Assembly (NCBI GenBank): GCA_947456185.1
Contig: CANGPW010000019.1
Coordinates: 1-38,081, forward strand
Direction: 5' to 3'
DNA length: 38,081 nucleotides
Origin: Bacteroidota bacterium
Lineage (GTDB): Bacteria > Bacteroidota > Bacteroidia > UKL13-3
Part shown: positions 2,712-28,289 of the stretch, piece by piece
Layout of the letters: the number at the start of each line of letters is the position of its first letter
Numbering within the stretch: position 1 is the first letter of the stretch
Made by a program: the position numbers and the translations under genes
Notes under the pieces: model-generated
Told to the model about the DNA's origin: nothing
Seen by the model: the letters and a program-made list of their open reading frames with translations, nothing else
Databases searched by the model: none

Positions 2712-4802
2712 CTAATTCTTCCTGAATAAATACATGTATATATTTTCATAACTACCTAGAGTAGGTGCAAAACGACTAAATCTTTTACCTGATAACGTAT
2801 ATGTATTAAAAATTATCATTTCTGTTCCTGTCCAAAATTTAATAGAATAATAGTCATCCGCTGGAGCATTTATTAAAGAAGAACTTGCCCAAGTATTGGT
2901 TAAAGGATTATATGTTCCCCCATCATTTTGATTAACTGAACCACCCCAAACAATCATTCCATTTCCTGTCCATATTGCAGTATGCGAATTTCTACTAGAA
3001 GGAGCATTTGCCTGAGTTGTGGCGGTCCAAGTATTGTTGGATGGATTGTAACGACCTCCACTATTTGTTGGTTTATTATTGGAAGTATCACCACCCCAAA
3101 TAATCATCTCTGTACCACTCCAAATTGCAGAATGAATCTTTCTTGCAGAAGGCGAGTTTAAAATGGGTAAAGCAGCCCATGAATTGGTGGATGGATTGTA
3201 ACGCCCTCCACTATTAGTTCTATAAGAAGTATAACTTAATGATGTATCTCCACCCCAAATAATCATTTCAGTACCACTCCAAATTGCAGAATGAATCTTT
3301 CTTGCAGAAGGCGCGTTTAAAATGGGTAAGGCAGTCCATGAATTGGTGGAAGGATTATATCGACCTCCACTATTGGCAATTCTAAAATAAGAAGTACCAT
3401 CAACTGCCTGATAAATGGAATCACCACCCCAAATAATCATTTCTGTACCTGTCCAAATAGCAGTGTGAAAAGATCTTTTATAAGGAGCTCCAATTGTTGT
3501 CATATTAGACCAAGTATTTGAAGTTGGATTATAGCGATATCCACTATTTGTTCTATAGATATTTTGCGATGCAGAATCACCACCCCAAATGATTACTTCT
3601 GTACCAGTCCAAACAAGAGAATAACCGCTTCTAAATATTGGCGCGCCAATGGTAGATATTGAAGACCAAGTATTGGTAACAGGGTTATATTTACCACCTC
3701 CATCAAAAACAATCAATTCTGAACCAGTCCAAATTGAGCTTGATTGATTTCCGGAAATTGTAGGTGCACCAACAATTGGAATTTCATCACCCCATTGCCA
3801 AGAAGCAGAGTCCGCTAATTTTTTTTGTCCTGTAGTTTGTATTTTAGTTAAAAAAGTATAACCCGCACTTAACATGCTGGTATCATAAGTATCTAATAAA
3901 ACAACTGATCCAGATTTTTGCATATTACTAACTGCACTCCAACTTAAGTTACCACTTCCGTTATTGGTTAATACTTGCCCATTGCTACCTTGCGTAGCAG
4001 GAAAAGAAGTAGGCACATTATTTATTTTCCTTAAATTACCTATGCTATCTACCTGAAACTGTGAACTTGTTCCCACCGATAATTTTGATTGAGGAGCATT
4101 AGTTCCTATGCCCACATTTCCATTGTTTTTATTATAAATTACTGTACCTGCCATGGCCCATGCGGTATCACCGTTTAAACCCCTAGCACCAGTATCGCCT
4201 TTCACTCCTTGAATACCTTGTAAACCTCTTGCACCACTATCACCTTTTACTCCTTGTATTCCTTGAATTCCTTGTAAACCTCTTGCACCACTATCACCTT
4301 TTACTCCTTGTATACCTTGCGAACCATTTATTCCTCTTACTCCGGTATCGCCTTTTATACCTTGTATTCCTTGAATTCCTTGTAAACCCTGTGGACCGGG
4401 AGCGCTATTTGCGGCAAACAATGCATAAGGCACACTCATTAATTCACTAGTACCAGTTATAGTATAAGTAGCACCTCCGTTAATATCGGTTTCGGTTTTA
4501 ATAAAATAGGGTCCATTGGCCCAATTGATGGTTGAAAAACTTCCACTTACCAATGTTCCTGTTCCAATTTCAATGTTTGCTAATCCATTGGCATTGGTAG
4601 TTGGAAAATGACGTTCTACATATACTGCGGTACCCGTTGCTGAACCTTGCAAAATGCTCACTTGCATACCAATGCCTTTGGAAGCTACTAAGTTATTTGA
4701 ACTGTTCCTGATTACTGCTTGGTAGCTCATTTTGTTTGGCGCTTGCGCAAATAGTTGTGAGCTAAATAAAATAGCTATGATGAATGAATATATTTTTTTC
4801 AT
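2712..4802 (-). CDS. Secreted collagen-like / Kelch-propeller protein
   Basis: A 696-aa protein. Residues 1-20 form a signal peptide ending in Ala-Gln. Residues 21-135 are a beta-rich N-domain of the type that heads many Bacteroidota surface proteins (MSYQAVIRN... [11 protein letters not shown]). Residues 136-213 are about 26 uninterrupted Gly-X-Y triplets ([12 protein letters not shown] repeated), predicted to form a collagen-like triple helix. A VGIGTNAP motif follows, as in tail-fibre-like proteins. The remainder contains seven Kelch-like units built around [11 protein letters not shown] and RYNPSTNSW, consistent with a seven-bladed propeller. It probably trimerises and displays binding propellers outside the cell. 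No C-terminal T9SS sorting domain is visible, so anchoring is unclear. It starts 3 bp after a small T9SS protein and is surely in the same operon. Function and ligand are unknown. Confidence 0.85.
3112..3370 (-). repeat. 159-bp near-identical Kelch-blade repeats inside the gene
   Basis: The DNA from 3112 and from 3271 is nearly identical for about 100 bp, starting GTACCACTCCAAATTGCAG. The offset is 159 bp, exactly 53 codons. Neighbouring blades are more diverged, so this pair looks like a recent in-frame duplication. Confidence 0.75.
4164..4397 (-). repeat. Collagen-like coding repeats, 54-bp period
   Basis: This encodes residues 136-213, the Gly-X-Y tract. A unit starting TTGTAAACCTCTTGCACC recurs at 54-bp spacing (18 residues), and shorter CCTTGTATTCCTTGAATT elements repeat within it. 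Repeat number could change without breaking frame. Confidence 0.75.
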
Positions 4803-11277: not shown

Positions 11278-11770
11278 AGGAAAAAAATAAAAAAAATTGA
11301 ATCACATAGGTACATAGAAAACATAGAATTCCAAAATTTATAATATCATGTTGCTTGCCATTTTTGTATGTCTGAGCTTTTAGTTTGTCAATCTGAGCTT
11401 GCCGAAGACCATACACGACCCTTCGGCAGGCTCAGGGTGACATTGCGTTTAGGACGAAAGTTGTTTAGTAAACAAAGTGTCTGTTACTTATTTCTTAAAA
11501 TGCTTAATGTCATGGTGAGCTTGATTTTTTGTCAGTCTGAGCTTGCCGAAGACCATACACAACCCTTCGGCAGGCTCAGGGTGACATTGCGTTTAGGGCA
11601 AAAGTTGTTTAGTAAACAAAGTGTCTGCTACTTATTTCTTAAAATGCTTAATGTCATGGTGAGCTTGATTTTTTGTCAGTCTGAGCTTGCCGAAGACCAT
11701 ACACAACCCTTCGGCAGGCTCAGGGTGACATTGCGTTTAGGGCGAAAGTTGTTATTTATGAATTCATATT
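11278..11770. other. Repeat-filled spacer
   Basis: 493 bp without a credible gene. A short segment reading CACATAGGTACATAGAAAACATAG near 11303 resembles common Bacteroidota intergenic repeats. The 144-bp tandem palindromic array follows (11387-11753). A plus-strand 193-codon ORF exists only because 144 is a multiple of three. Confidence 0.8.
11387..11753. repeat. Tandem 144-bp palindromic repeat, two full units plus a partial third
   Basis: Units start at 11387, 11531 and 11675, exactly 144 bp apart. The third stops after about 79 bp. Each carries CTGAGCTTGCCGAAG (first at 11393-11407) and CTTCGGCAGGCTCAG (11421-11435), which pair at 14 of 15 positions around a 13-nt loop and are followed by GGTGACATTGCG. 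The full units also hold a second palindrome, TTGTTTAGTAAACAA (11461-11475 and 11605-11619). The CTTCGGCAGGCTCAG core resembles a repeat widespread in bacterial intergenic regions. The array ends about 18 bp before a GIY-YIG gene. Confidence 0.9.
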
Positions 11771-22303: not shown

Positions 22304-22942
22304 CTAAGGAGCTAATCTTTCAATTTTCCATGAATGATCTGCTTGCAATTGATATAAAAAACGATCGTGTAACCTACTTGCACGCCCTTGCCAAAATTCA
22401 AAACTGATGGGTTTTACTATATAACCACCCCAATGAATTGGTCGCAATAAAGGTTCTTCTTCAAATAATGCTTCCATTTTTTTCATGCTTTCTTCCAAAA
22501 CTGCTCTATTGGCAATTACTTTACTTTGAGGGGAAACATGTGCACCTATTTTACTCCCTATAGGTCGACTATTAAAGTATGTATCTGATCTGTCTTCAGC
22601 AATTTTAAATGTATTTCCAACTATACGCACTTGACGTTGTAATTCGGGCCAAAAAAATACCAATGAAACCTTATTGTTTTCTAATAATTCTTGTCCTTTT
22701 TTACTTTCATAATTGGTAAAAAATTCAAATCCATTTGGTACTATTCCTTTTAATAAAACAATTCGAGCAGCTGGATAACCATCAATTCCTATTGTTGATA
22801 AAGTCATCGCATTAGGTTCTAATATTTCTGCTTTTATTGCTTCATCAAACCATATTTCAAATTGCACAAAAGCATTTTGATTTATATCTTTTTCATCAAA
22901 TGTTTTTAGTAAATAATCTGTTCTAATATCTGCAATTTTCAT
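22304..22942 (-). CDS. pdxH: Pyridoxamine/pyridoxine 5'-phosphate oxidase
   Basis: A 212-aa FMN enzyme making pyridoxal 5'-phosphate. MTLSTIGIDGYPAARIVLLKG carries the FMN/substrate loop. FFTNYESKKGQELLENNKVSLVFFWPELQRQVRI is highly conserved. RPIGSKIGAHVSPQS and WGGYIVKPISFEFWQGRASRLHDR are diagnostic, and it ends in the typical IERLAP. Both alanine racemase, nearby on the plus strand, and many other enzymes use its product. It lies 2 bp after the ddl-like gene, so the two form an operon. Confidence 0.95.
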   Translation of the reverse strand: MKIADIRTDYLLKTFDEKDINQNAFVQFEIWFDEAIKAEILEPNAMTLSTIGIDGYPAARIVLLKGIVPNGFEFFTNYESKKGQELLENNKVSLVFFWPELQRQVRIVGNTFKIAEDRSDTYFNSRPIGSKIGAHVSPQSKVIANRAVLEESMKKMEALFEEEPLLRPIHWGGYIVKPISFEFWQGRASRLHDRFLYQLQADHSWKIERLAP

Positions 22943-22944
22943 AA

Positions 22945-25671
22945 TTATTTGCTTAGCATTTTTTGTTCACCAAATTCTAAAATTTTATCTATAAAATCAT
23001 AGGGCTTATAATTATTTAAAGCACACTGATGGAAGATAGCGGTAGCAGGTGTCATTCCTGGCAATGAATTAATTTCAATGATTACTACTTCTACCCTATT
23101 TTTATCAAATATTTTCACAAATGCATCTATCCTGCAATAGCCTTCTACGTTTAAAACTTTTGCTGTTTTTTTCAAAACATCCCTTACCTTTTCACTTATT
23201 TCATTTTGAATTTTTGGACTTTTACTAAACCTACTTGGGGTAATATTTTGCCCTTGTCCTGCTAAAAACTTTTCTTCTAATGAAAGTATTTCTCCTTCTG
23301 CTAATGTTTCACTAGGTTCAAACATTTCATAAGTTAACTTTCCTTTTTTATATTGTGTAAGCAATCCTCCAGTAACTTCCAAAAAGTGTTTAGCTTCTCC
23401 TTTTTCTAAAAATTTTTCAACTAAAAAATACTGTTTCATAGGAAATTCTTCTTTCGGTTTTAAACCTAATTTTTGAGCTAATTTGGTTTCCATTATTTCC
23501 AAAGGTCTAAAAACTCCTCCAGCATAATTGATCAAGTCATCACGTGTTTTAATTTTCTTCACAGCACTACTACAGCCGTCATCAGCTGGTTTTGCTATTA
23601 AAGGATAGCCAATAGTTTCTACCTTTTTTATGACTTCGTCAATGTTATTTTTCCAATCTTTTTGTTGAACCAGCATATGTTCTGCAATCAGAATTTTATG
23701 GTTTTTTAGCAATTCATTGGTATCATATTTATTGATGGTAATCTTACTACTTTCTACACCACTTCCGTTGTATGGAATTTTTAGTTTATTTAAATACGTT
23801 TGAACTGTTCCATCTTCTCCCGGGCGACCGTGTAATGCAATAAATACATTATCCGCCATTTTTTTCAATTCTTTATAATCAATTTTTCTTGGAGCAAATA
23901 ATTGCTTTTCTGCATCACCATATTTATCAATAATGGGTTTGCATTCCGCAATAATTTTATCCATAATTGGCAAGCGTTTGTAACCCGAAAGTTTTTCTTT
24001 GATGTCGTCTGCATTGTCTTTCAACATCACATTTACAGGCAACAACCATAATTCATGCGATTGGTCATTACCAGTTACAAATACTGGAAACGGCTGATAC
24101 TTGGTTGAAGATGCTAATTTTTCATAAATATTTCTTCCACTTTCAACCGAAATATGTCGCTCTGTTGAATAGCCACCCATAAAAACTGCTACACGTTTTT
24201 TATCACTTTTCTTACTCTTATTTTGAGCAATTTGATGGTCTAAATATTCCAATAATTGTATATGATGAAAATGCACTTGTTGTGATTGCACCCTTTCTGC
24301 CAATGAAGTGCGAATAATATAAGTTAAAAACTGTGAAGGATTCAACCCAATTTCAGCTGCTTGATGAAAAAAGAAGCTAGATGGCATCATTCCGCTGGTG
24401 GTATTTGGATCATTCAAAAACAATTTTCCTTCGTTATTGATAAATCCATCAATGCGTGCATACACATGAAAATTGAAAAAAGTAAACAGCTTTTCACAAG
24501 CCGTTCTTATTTCATCGATCTTTTTATCTGCAATATCAATTGGCGTAATTTTCCTGCTTAATCCGGGTAAATACTTACTGCGGTAATCATAAATTTCCTT
24601 ACCTTTTACAATCTCGGTTGGGGGTAATGCCACGGCAGTTCCATCTTCATTTTTAAGTACAATACAACTAAACTCTCTACCTTCAATAAATTCTTCAATT
24701 AAACATTCTGTTTCTGAGTAAATGCTTTCTAATTGAATTGTTGATTTGTTGATTTGTTGATTTGTTGATTTAGCTTTACTCTTTAACTGATTACTAGGTA
24801 CTTCAAACTCACAACTAAATAATGCCCATAAATCATCAGGATTATAAATCAATTCCTTTTTATTGTTCACCGTTGCAATGGCTGGTAAACCAATTCCTTC
24901 TTTTACGTCAGTTATTTTTTGAATGAATTGAGTTTTGGTTTTTTCGTCTTTATTAATCCAATCTTTTGGTGCAATATTTTGTATAAAAAACGATTTGATC
25001 ACCGCGTTTTCAAAGTCTTCAAAGTTATCGTTACTAATAACAGAAACCCCAACAGAACTTCCTTGATTAGCGGGTTTTACCACAAAAGGAAAACCAACTT
25101 GTTTCTTTACATTTTGGTATATATTTTTTAAATGATGGAGTTCCGATTTTTGAAACGATAAATATTTCGGAACATTCATTCCAGCACTTTGCATCAATTG
25201 TTTTTGCAAGCGTTTGTTCATTCCTAAAGAACTTGGCATTATTCCAGAACCACTGTATGGAATGTCCATAAATTCTAACAAACCTTGTATCGTTCCATCT
25301 TCGCCATTGGCGCCATGAAGCGCTAAAAATGCAAAATCAATTAACCCTTTTAAGTCTTCGGCTTTTAAAGTTTTACCTAGTTTTTTGATCAGCGACTTAC
25401 CATTGTCTTCATGAGCTGATGCTAAGTTTTCTGCATAAACTTGGACCTCGGTTTTTTGGTTTTTTAAAGCTGAAACTGGCGGATAAAAATCACGGATTGA
25501 ACCTTTATATATAAAGTGCCAATCGAGCAAAATAAAATTATTAAAGCTATCAACAAAAATAGGAATAGCATCAAAAAGTGTTTTATCTAAATTATCATAA
25601 ACTGTGCGTCCACCGGCAAACGAAACCTCACGCTCACGGCTATTTCCACCAAAAAAAATTCCTATTTTCAT
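22945..25671 (-). CDS. ddl: Tandem (double) D-alanine-D-alanine ligase-like protein
   Basis: A 908-aa protein of two fused Ddl-type ATP-grasp units; typical Ddl is about 310-370 aa. Unit 1 (1 to about 490) has FGGNSREREVS, HGANGEDG (119-126), KPANQGSSVGVS (199-210) and NDPNTTSG (420-427), where the usual Glu-x-Asn metal site reads Asp-x-Asn. Unit 2 (about 492-908) has MGGYSTERHIS, HGRPGEDG (614-621), a divergent KPADDGCSSAV (694-704) and intact EINSLPGMTP (866-875). Each half lacks part of the classic set, so they may divide labour. Ddl makes the D-Ala-D-Ala used by MurF. An insert with four 8-bp DNA repeats lies at residues about 301-313. pdxH follows after 2 bp. Confidence 0.88.
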   Translation of the reverse strand: MKIGIFFGGNSREREVSFAGGRTVYDNLDKTLFDAIPIFVDSFNNFILLDWHFIYKGSIRDFYPPVSALKNQKTEVQVYAENLASAHEDNGKSLIKKLGKTLKAEDLKGLIDFAFLALHGANGEDGTIQGLLEFMDIPYSGSGIMPSSLGMNKRLQKQLMQSAGMNVPKYLSFQKSELHHLKNIYQNVKKQVGFPFVVKPANQGSSVGVSVISNDNFEDFENAVIKSFFIQNIAPKDWINKDEKTKTQFIQKITDVKEGIGLPAIATVNNKKELIYNPDDLWALFSCEFEVPSNQLKSKAKSTNQQINKSTIQLESIYSETECLIEEFIEGREFSCIVLKNEDGTAVALPPTEIVKGKEIYDYRSKYLPGLSRKITPIDIADKKIDEIRTACEKLFTFFNFHVYARIDGFINNEGKLFLNDPNTTSGMMPSSFFFHQAAEIGLNPSQFLTYIIRTSLAERVQSQQVHFHHIQLLEYLDHQIAQNKSKKSDKKRVAVFMGGYSTERHISVESGRNIYEKLASSTKYQPFPVFVTGNDQSHELWLLPVNVMLKDNADDIKEKLSGYKRLPIMDKIIAECKPIIDKYGDAEKQLFAPRKIDYKELKKMADNVFIALHGRPGEDGTVQTYLNKLKIPYNGSGVESSKITINKYDTNELLKNHKILIAEHMLVQQKDWKNNIDEVIKKVETIGYPLIAKPADDGCSSAVKKIKTRDDLINYAGGVFRPLEIMETKLAQKLGLKPKEEFPMKQYFLVEKFLEKGEAKHFLEVTGGLLTQYKKGKLTYEMFEPSETLAEGEILSLEEKFLAGQGQNITPSRFSKSPKIQNEISEKVRDVLKKTAKVLNVEGYCRIDAFVKIFDKNRVEVVIIEINSLPGMTPATAIFHQCALNNYKPYDFIDKILEFGEQKMLSK
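24738..24769. repeat. Four perfect 8-bp tandem repeats inside ddl
   Basis: TTGTTGAT occurs four times without change. It encodes the low-complexity insert STNQQINKST in unit 1 of the ligase. Because 8 is not a multiple of 3, gaining or losing one copy would break the frame. Confidence 0.9.
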
Positions 25672-26030: not shown

Positions 26031-28289
26031 ATGAAATACATACTCGCTATTTTATTTTTTATACCAAATATAATTGCAGCACAAATTGCAAATCAATATG
26101 CCGATGCGCTTACAGCGAAGTATGAGCAAGATTTGATAAAAGCAACCCAATTACTAAAACCACCATTTTTAACTACAAAAAAAACAGAAGAAAATGGACG
26201 ATTAATTGAATTCGATGGCTTTGGCGACAATGGTTTTCCAGAGTTTAAAACAACCTGTTCTAATATTGGCCTTGCTGCCACCTTAAATACCAATCAAGTA
26301 TGGCCAAGTGGAGTTTTAGGATTAAATTTAAGTGGAATCGGATATAATAAATTAGGCATGTGGGATGGTGGAGGAGTGAGAATTTCTCATAGAGAATTTT
26401 TGGGCAGAGTAATAAATATGGACACTTCATCCAGTTTATCTTCTCATTCAAATAATGTGGCGGGATTATTAATAGCTGCTGGTTTTAATCCTAATGCTAA
26501 AGGATTGGCTTATCAAAGTAATTTAAAAGCTTGGAACTTTACTAATGATAGAACAGAAATGGCATTATTTGCGAATGATTTATTGGTTTCTAACCATTCC
26601 TATGGAAATGCAGCAGCATGGATATTTTCAGGAGGTTTTCAATATTGGTTAGGCGACACCACATTAAATGCCACCAAAGATTGGAAATTTGGATTTTATG
26701 ATACAAGAACCAAAGATTTTGACAGTATTTCGTGGGCAAATCCAAATTATTTAATTGTAAAAGCAGTTGGAAATGACCGGGGTAATTCAATAGCAGCAGG
26801 TTCTCCACATTTGATTTGGAACGGAACCTCTTTTGTTTTATCAACAGCAAATAGAGATACTGTTGGCCCTTATGATTGTATTGTAACTTATGGAACTGCT
26901 AAAAATATTTTAACTGTTGGTGCTATAGATATTTTACCAAATGGATTTGTATCTGCACCTTTAAATACGATTAGTTATAGCAGTTGGGGACCCACCGATG
27001 ATGGAAGAATAAAACCAGATATTGTTTGTGGAACAAACTCCACCTTTACTCCCACTAGCACAAACGATTCATCTTATAGCTCTTTGGGTGGTACTTCCAT
27101 GGCTGCTCCAGGAGCAACAGGTTCATTGTTGTTGGTACAACAACATTTTTATAATTTAAAAAACAGATTTATGAAATCCGCTACTTTAAAAGGATTGGCT
27201 ATTCATACTGCAACAAATTGTAAAACTACTTTAGGACCAAACTATGAAAGTGGTTGGGGATTATTAAACACTGCAAAAGCTGCTCAAACTATCAGTGATT
27301 CTGTTAAAAACATCATCAAAGAATATAATTTATTAAATAGTGATACTTTTAAATTTATTATTTCTGTAAATGGATTAGATACTGTAAAAACCACTTTGTG
27401 TTGGACCGATCCACCAGCAATTGCAAGTGCTCCCGCTTATAATGATACCATACCAAAATTGATCAATGATTTGGATATTCAAATCATTAGGAACTCAAAT
27501 AGTCAAGTTTATTTGCCTTATATTTTAAATCCAAATAATCCAAGTGCATCTGCAACAAATGGAAATAATTTTAGAGATAATGTAGAACAAATTTATTTGC
27601 CAAACTTACCAAGTGGCACTTACACTATTTTGGTAACTCATAAAAACAATTTGCAAAACAATGCACCACAAGCATTTTCATTAGTTGGAAGTGGATTTGT
27701 ATTAACGGCTACTTTACCTGTAAAATGGCTGAATTTTGATGGTATAAACCTGGGAGATAAAGTTCAATTAAATTGGAGAACAGTGAATGAAGTAAACAAC
27801 GCGGGATTTGACATTGAACGTTCTACCAATAATCAAACCTTTGGGAAAATAGGATACGTTAAGGGATTTGGAAATACGGTTGTAATTCAAAAATACGATT
27901 TTATAGATGAGCTAAATAATTTTACAAATATTGATCCATTTAGCGATAAATTATATTATAGATTGAAACAAATAGACTATGATGGAAACTATCATTATTC
28001 TAGAACCATTTCGATAGATGCTCCAAATATGTTTGGTGTATTTGTGTATCCAAACCCATTCAATGAATCTTTAAATGTTGCTATCAATTCTAATATTTCA
28101 AATCAAAACTGTGATGTAAAATTATTGGATTTGAGTGGAAGAGAATTAATAACCAAAAGTTTTACCACAAATAACAAAGAATTTATTTTTGAAATGAAAG
28201 AGGTAAATATGCTAAATCCCGGAATTTACTTTATAAGAATTATTGTTAATGGTAAAATATTTACAAACAAAATAATTAAGATTAACTAG
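26031..28289 (+). CDS. Secreted S8 subtilisin-like peptidase with T9SS sorting domain
   Basis: A 752-aa protein. Residues 1-17 are a signal peptide (ending IIAA before Q). The peptidase S8 triad is Asp112 (GMWDGGG), His139 (SSHSNNVAG) and Ser356 (GGTSMAAPG); Asn248 in VKAVGNDRG fits the oxyanion position. After the protease comes a beta-sandwich region (DTVKTTLCWTDPPAI, LINDLDIQI, GTYTILVTHKNN) resembling the jelly-roll (CUB/P-like) domains of such proteases. The last about 85 residues are a T9SS type A domain (VYPNPFNESLNVAI ... KIFTNKIIKIN). It is probably released to or held on the cell surface. Its TAG stop overlaps the stop of the convergent gene at a CTAG. Confidence 0.9.
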   Translation: MKYILAILFFIPNIIAAQIANQYADALTAKYEQDLIKATQLLKPPFLTTKKTEENGRLIEFDGFGDNGFPEFKTTCSNIGLAATLNTNQVWPSGVLGLNLSGIGYNKLGMWDGGGVRISHREFLGRVINMDTSSSLSSHSNNVAGLLIAAGFNPNAKGLAYQSNLKAWNFTNDRTEMALFANDLLVSNHSYGNAAAWIFSGGFQYWLGDTTLNATKDWKFGFYDTRTKDFDSISWANPNYLIVKAVGNDRGNSIAAGSPHLIWNGTSFVLSTANRDTVGPYDCIVTYGTAKNILTVGAIDILPNGFVSAPLNTISYSSWGPTDDGRIKPDIVCGTNSTFTPTSTNDSSYSSLGGTSMAAPGATGSLLLVQQHFYNLKNRFMKSATLKGLAIHTATNCKTTLGPNYESGWGLLNTAKAAQTISDSVKNIIKEYNLLNSDTFKFIISVNGLDTVKTTLCWTDPPAIASAPAYNDTIPKLINDLDIQIIRNSNSQVYLPYILNPNNPSASATNGNNFRDNVEQIYLPNLPSGTYTILVTHKNNLQNNAPQAFSLVGSGFVLTATLPVKWLNFDGINLGDKVQLNWRTVNEVNNAGFDIERSTNNQTFGKIGYVKGFGNTVVIQKYDFIDELNNFTNIDPFSDKLYYRLKQIDYDGNYHYSRTISIDAPNMFGVFVYPNPFNESLNVAINSNISNQNCDVKLLDLSGRELITKSFTTNNKEFIFEMKEVNMLNPGIYFIRIIVNGKIFTNKIIKIN

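Follow-up and report, generated by a model that had tools for sequence, protein, structure and literature searches.

The question raised by this locus is how a tandem repeat with a unit of 8 bp, a length indivisible by three, is kept within a gene for D-Ala-D-Ala ligase (Ddl). We analysed a stretch of 38,081 nucleotides from a Bacteroidota genome (contig CANGPW010000019.1), hereafter called the window, for which an earlier note, made from the DNA letters, had put forward two readings: the repeat might be a contingency locus, or it might be a tolerated repeat of intergenic type that had entered an exposed loop. We consider it very probable that an array of a dispersed octamer family was captured in frame at a permissive loop of Ddl and has been carried since as a frame-locked passenger at four copies, with no role as a switch.

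The four units of 8 bp that had been reported at the locus were borne out exactly by the sequence and by TRF (period 8, 4.9 copies, 96% matches, score 71), and the array does lie in unit 1, the first of the two sets of N- and C-terminal Ddl domains (Table 1). A probe of three units, allowing up to two mismatches, matched at the array only (two overlapping matches in the whole window), and it gave no match in 100 dinucleotide shuffles of the window. In the coding sense the array begins at nucleotide 901 of the CDS, that is at residue 301 of the product, from where it encodes the peptide KSTNQQINKST. All three sense frames of the octamer read through, as repeats of INKSTNQQ, and the antisense octamer has a stop in every frame. 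The sense unit lacks G and forms a direct repeat with no long palindrome.

Table 1. Features of the ddl locus, given as positions in the window, with strand and basis of assignment
Feature	Position	Strand	Basis
908-aa fusion of two D-Ala-D-Ala ligase domains	22945..25671	-	ORF, Pfam and NCBIfam
Ddl unit 1, ~residues 1-459, with array	24295..25671	-	Domain matches
Ddl unit 2, ~residues 492-908, without array	22948..24198	-	Domain matches
Genus-specific loop insert of Ddl unit 1, ~residues 286-314	24730..24816	-	Loop comparison and model
Octamer array: plus strand TTGTTGAT x4, coding-sense AAATCAAC x4	24738..24769	-	TRF extent 24733-24771

The window contains further repeats. At 11384-11753 a unit of 144 nt occurs 2.6 times (97% alike) with REP-like inverted CTTCGGCARGCTCAG pairs, CTTCGGCARGCTCAG giving six matches against 0.01 expected by chance; a 193-aa ORF over this stretch has no Pfam match and is therefore probably spurious. 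Tandem repeats are also present in a 696-aa ORF, at 3033-3374 (unit of 159 nt, 2.2 copies) and at 4206-4388 (unit of 54 nt, 3.4 copies).

Pfam and NCBIfam both recognise two Ddl sets in the product of the host gene, each composed of Dala_Dala_lig_N and Dala_Dala_lig_C, and such a fusion is ordinary within the lineage. Some match was obtained in 56 of 58 genomes (own genome included), and within family f1 the fused copy was full-length or nearly so in 32 of 35 genomes, being cut in G002, G005 and G030. Fusions were 53 to 97% identical to the window protein and were not confined to f1: other families have them too, as do named strains of Hymenobacter, Pontibacter, Rufibacter and Adhaeribacter. 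In the genome of the window itself (2.61 Mb in 127 contigs), a search with the fused protein returned one Ddl match (E <= 0.001). The 908-aa fusion is thus the only Ddl found, and, as the genome is 94% complete, a second copy in the missing part is conceivable. The gene is flanked by those for a pyridoxamine 5'-phosphate oxidase (22304-22942) and for an S8 peptidase bearing a Por secretion-system tail (26031-28289).

Residues of unit 1 at K366-Y367 align with the KY of DdlA, and D421 stands at the position of E in three aligned Ddl structures. In unit 2, the counterpart of position 216 in E. coli DdlB, which is Y in 1iov and F in 1iow (a Y216F structure), is F802; this part of the alignment is low scoring, and F802 is invariant in all 42 aligned fusions. 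Judged from these residues, the two units may have different products. The best 50 Foldseek rows were all ligases of the D-Ala-D-Ala, D-Ala-D-Lac or D-Ala-D-Ser type. Their TM-scores were 0.73-0.88 when normalised by target length and ~0.3 by query length, the targets being single Ddl chains that provide no check on the two-unit arrangement. The DDL of plants has been described in one account as a fusion of two DDL genes (PMC9954125), the likeness being that two Ddl are fused. The bacterial fusion is shared by named strains of Hymenobacter, Pontibacter and Rufibacter, and the Bacteroidota fusion could be a candidate source of the plant fusion.

Slippage within the array would be damaging unless it came in threes, because, of the copy numbers from 1 to 7, only 1, 4 and 7 leave the frame open through to the end of the protein. 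The earlier note was therefore correct about the frameshift risk: 2, 3, 5 and 6 units lead to a stop at residues 308, 322, 316 and 330 of 908, respectively. A coding repeat whose unit is no multiple of three, and which truncates the protein on gain or loss of one or two units, is what speaks for a contingency locus, where slippage would turn the ligase on and off within populations; octa- and heptanucleotide repeats have indeed been proposed, in an account of Haemophilus influenzae, as phase-variation tracts (PMC2651432). The relatives argue against it. Copy number, which the note had suggested comparing among strains, was compared between species, our sample comprising one assembly for each: all five perfect arrays have four units (G000, G001, G007, G008 and G009, the last four with a protein 87-96% identical to the window Ddl). 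G003 has a degenerate array of the same length as a four-unit one, the G006 loop holds about two degenerate units in frame, and none of the nine readable loops among the ten genomes of the genus (G002 being cut) was out of frame. Moreover, the gene is the only Ddl found, and the period-8 span of its array is 34-39 nt, as against 134 nt reached by an intergenic array of the family. We therefore regard a contingency locus as highly improbable. One- or two-unit slippage would instead end the product of this gene, the only Ddl found, somewhere around residues 308-330, a truncation which we infer to be lethal, so that selection would keep copy number at four (1 or 7 also being in frame) and switching within species would not be expected.

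Copy changes only in threes, which the earlier note had named as an outcome that would speak against its proposal, were seen in one comparison. In MurC, another host of the octamer, the loops of G004 and G009 differ by exactly 24 nt, or three octamers, which fits the rule, though the length differences of further MurC loops are at least 6 nt and no multiples of the octamer. The assembly of G008 contains two ddl contigs, one of which (L194, G008:C228) ends within the octamer array; perhaps two strains share one bin, and the contig end within the array could hide copy-number variation.

The array is predicted to encode an unstructured loop. An AlphaFold model of the fused Ddl, built on an alignment of 42 sequences, had a mean pLDDT of 85.5 and a pTM of 0.86, with pLDDT below 50 at residues 294-296 and 298-308; these residues lie in or after a weak helix (293-300), ahead of a strand (312-316). 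The stretch corresponding to residues 278-334 is 120 nt long in most f1 genomes fetched outside the genus, while the window has 171 nt, G005 216 nt, G004 159 nt and G006 141 nt, in a comparison that left out the partial loci L026 and L057 and matches below 40% identity. The filling differs as well: G004 and G005 have a REP-like repeat instead of the octamer, with a CTTCGACAAGCT stretch in both and additionally a GTCATCCTGAGCGAAGTCGAAGGAC stretch in G005, and outside the genus neither kind of repeat is present in the loop of most fused Ddl. As to the earlier note's question whether close relatives lack the insert, there are relatives without it and others with a different filling. The array would be tolerated because the octamer is stop-free in its three sense frames and the loop is, by prediction, unstructured, and variable among homologues.

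By parsimony, a short tract holding the content of the loop would have been exchanged two or more times. In a tree computed without the loop, G005 groups with the octamer-bearing G000, G001, G008 and G009, and G004 is placed beside G003. Recombination of a large segment was considered as the source of the G005 loop and rejected, as the informative sites on either flank mostly side with the clade of G005 until the loop is reached, and only a short tract around the loop differs. A REP-like stretch read as VILSEVEG was seen in frame in the IcmF of G003 (L110:1999-2019) and in the Ddl of G005 (L009:2443-2463), adjoining the octamer or replacing it.

The octamer itself belongs to a dispersed family with the unit (AATCAACM)n. 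The pattern ATCAACMAATCAACMAATCAAC, with at most one mismatch, had 12 overlapping matches at seven places in the genome of the window, in which the reversed pattern had none; it matched in 15 of 58 genomes (own included), and the reversed control in none of the 58. A shorter pattern matched in nine of the ten genomes of the genus, the exception being G006, while its control had no match in these ten, and in the own genome it gave 21 matches at 12 distinct sites. A wider pattern had control matches in five of the ten genomes, most of them in G009 (14), and was therefore used solely to find more sites, 12 such places joining the genus set. Across the class, a pattern without mismatches matched in 6 of 198 genomes (own included). 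The family is concentrated in the home genus and patchy elsewhere, and none of the open-access papers covered by our searches was seen to describe it.

Genes were called from ATG to stop with a minimum of 80 aa and no gene finder. By this rule, eight of the 12 sites in the own genome are intergenic and four are coding (ddl, murC, icmF and a DsbD-like gene). The genus set comprises 74 sites in 73 loci, drawn from among the matches listed and with ddl arrays left out except for one G008 fragment; 54 of the 72 placed sites are intergenic and 18 coding, with two more at contig edges, in fetched DNA (272,504 genus bases) of which ~85% is coding by the same simple rule. A dispersed octamer that is mainly intergenic in the genus, lodged in an insert predicted to be disordered, supports the second reading of the earlier note, that of an intergenic-type repeat tolerated where it entered an exposed loop.

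All 18 coding sites of the genus are in the sense, stop-free orientation. They fall in MurC (6), IcmF (4), SufS (2), HisRS (2), a DsbD-like protein, an epimerase-like protein, the ddl fragment and L113 (one each), and they place the peptide INKSTNQQ in MurC, IcmF, SufS, HisRS and others, the copies measured spanning 19-39 nt. L113 is coding by the ORF rule, yet it is the orthologue of the intergenic leaders L104 and L117, with a leader in common with L180, and is probably a leader array. When one member of each protein was scanned with NCBIfam, MurC and HisRS met the cut-offs and IcmF, SufS, DsbD and the epimerase fell below them; for IcmF and SufS, the limits of the fetched stretch or the choice of start had made the scanned protein shorter.

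In other genera, the 24 sites in 24 loci divide into 12 coding (again all in sense), nine intergenic and three at edges. Coding sites thus outnumber intergenic ones, so that 'intergenic-type' describes the home genus rather than every carrier. The hosts include RsmE, GcvP and MutS2, MurC and SufS in G029, and, below the NCBIfam cut-off, IcmF in G032 and a DsbD-like protein in G027; NCBIfam gave no match for L199 and L212 at 1e-30 or for L211 at 1e-15, and L217 and L218 were outside the scan. Pairwise alignment places the octamer peptide at the home-genus position in IcmF (81% identity), SufS (82%) and MurC (69%). The MurC of G019, a genome that shares its genus label with G029, is without the octamer peptide, and the capture in the G029 MurC therefore looks independent.

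An alternative for the ddl array is that slippage expanded one octamer-like stretch already present in the loop, unlinked to the intergenic copies. The homologous loop of G006, with its two or so degenerate units, is compatible with such an origin. So is the unit type, which from species to species is mostly gene-specific (AAATCAAC for ddl and CCAATCAA for murC; the G003 ddl is among the exceptions) and hence suggests that arrays are inherited in place once gained. Nevertheless, one and the same octamer recurs in many unrelated genes and intergenic sites while the reversed control stays at zero; a shared source or a shared bias is needed, independent slippage alone being insufficient. We regard growth in place as doubtful.

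Intergenic copies are placed with a marked polarity. Reading the array as AATCAAC, its 3' end is closer than its 5' end to a gene edge at 47 of the 53 sites between genes in the genus (binomial p 5.8e-9; one tie among the 54 was dropped, and two genus sites and three from other genera at edges were out), and at 31 of 35 (p 3.5e-6) when one site is counted per orthologous neighbour. The 3' end lies within 30 nt of an edge at 40 of 54 sites, equally divided between starts in sense (20) and stops in antisense (20), and the 5' end does so at 3 of 54. In aligned displays, arrays run into the ATG and stop codons run into the reverse complement. Since the rule was drawn post hoc within the genus, the set from other genera was fetched as a test, in two batches; it stood at 6/6 and then at 8/9 (p 0.039). 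At the single miss, L222, an ATG follows closely after the array, and the gene call may be wrong.

Base composition was discarded as the cause of the polarity, as the skew is weak over 199 edges with arrays excluded (the 40 nt that precede starts hold 40% A and 35% T, and the 40 nt that follow stops hold 37% A and 37% T). A gene-calling artefact was excluded in part: the stops at L102, L203 and L206 do not look array-derived, and at some other stop-edge sites (for example L116, L130 and L136) the stop codon is perhaps derived from the array. The polar placement holds for intergenic copies, and coding copies such as that in ddl are outside its terms.

Such polarity, seen in the genus, after reduction to one site per orthologous neighbour and in other genera, would suit a functional octamer, for example a translational leader element, whose coding copies are kept for their nucleotides or as a useful flexible linker. 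The TAACTGA repeats discussed below have been proposed as translational sites (PMC4679880). A second point in favour comes from codons. Between G000 and G007, codons are identical at 13/13 shared residues of a 14-codon stretch at the ddl array, as compared with 63% of same-residue positions elsewhere (p 0.0027). With codon-specific rates the value is ~9e-6. Three pairs were computed and this one is the strongest, those with G001 and G009 giving p 0.022 and 0.0055; all these values are descriptive, coming from one locus in genomes with a common history. The 18 non-octamer nucleotides before the array are unchanged too; in G003, of the same clade as G007, the array has changed. On this comparison the array DNA is more conserved than would be expected of a neutral passenger, and this counts against the passenger reading. 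The conservation could stem from selection, from recombination of a short tract or from homogenisation within the array, though the last does not explain the 18 unchanged non-octamer nucleotides. On the other hand, a leader function leaves unexplained the 26 of 54 intergenic sites that face a stop codon, two congeners have filled the Ddl loop with an unrelated repeat, and most fused Ddl outside the genus manage with neither. On balance we consider a function of the octamer unlikely.

We thus return to capture of a passenger, in which an array of a family residing mainly at gene borders would have lodged in frame in the surface loop of Ddl unit 1. As to how the arrays spread, we tentatively raise the possibility, which is far from the most probable, of a polar, edge-anchored octamer element that spreads in the lineage, sets its 3' end against starts in sense and stops in antisense, and repeatedly seeds INKSTNQQ at the same permissive loops of essential enzymes. 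If this were true, short non-coding repeats would turn into protein sequence repeatedly at the same sites. Several housekeeping enzymes share the octamer, with matching positions across genera, and this offers a natural experiment in the conversion of a non-coding repeat to protein. Judging by the ddl array, a repeat with a unit length indivisible by three may persist, unswitched, in a gene of essential type, given a stop-free unit and a permissive loop.

The array resembles several known repeat systems. Long simple sequence repeats of prokaryotes, with units of 5-11 nt, are described as slippage-prone (PMC4679880), and the octamer has in common with them and with the phase-variation repeats of H. 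influenzae (PMC2651432) a tandem unit that three does not divide. The latter are reported from genes for surface structures, whereas the host of the octamer is a single-copy housekeeping ligase in which no frame-shifting difference was seen. The Rickettsia palindromic element (RPE), as portrayed in PMC10969869, is a dispersed repeat that inserts in frame in unrelated metabolic genes and adds a repeat-encoded peptide. The octamer likewise occurs in frame in unrelated genes and adds a peptide; however, the RPE is ~150 bp long and palindromic, and octamer arrays are short direct repeats.

In placement, the octamer resembles the TAACTGA heptamers, which form short tandem arrays, mostly intergenic and forward where they meet start codons. 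In the account of MacGregor (2015; PMC4679880), F. litoralis DSM 6794 has 14 sets; 12 lie between genes in forward orientation, with a start 1-43 nt further on, and one is reversed directly behind a stop, the same edge polarity as that of the octamer. Some TAACTGA sets lie inside ORFs. The edge polarity of the octamer thus has a precedent, because TAACTGA sets show it. The units differ, a heptamer there and the octamer AATCAACM here, and so do their coding properties: forward TAACTGA stops in all frames, so that forward coding sets are found at ORF ends and internal ones are reversed (PMC4679880), whereas the forward octamer is stop-free and sits within housekeeping genes. Edge polarity therefore provides a testable rule, one which extends the TAACTGA observations.
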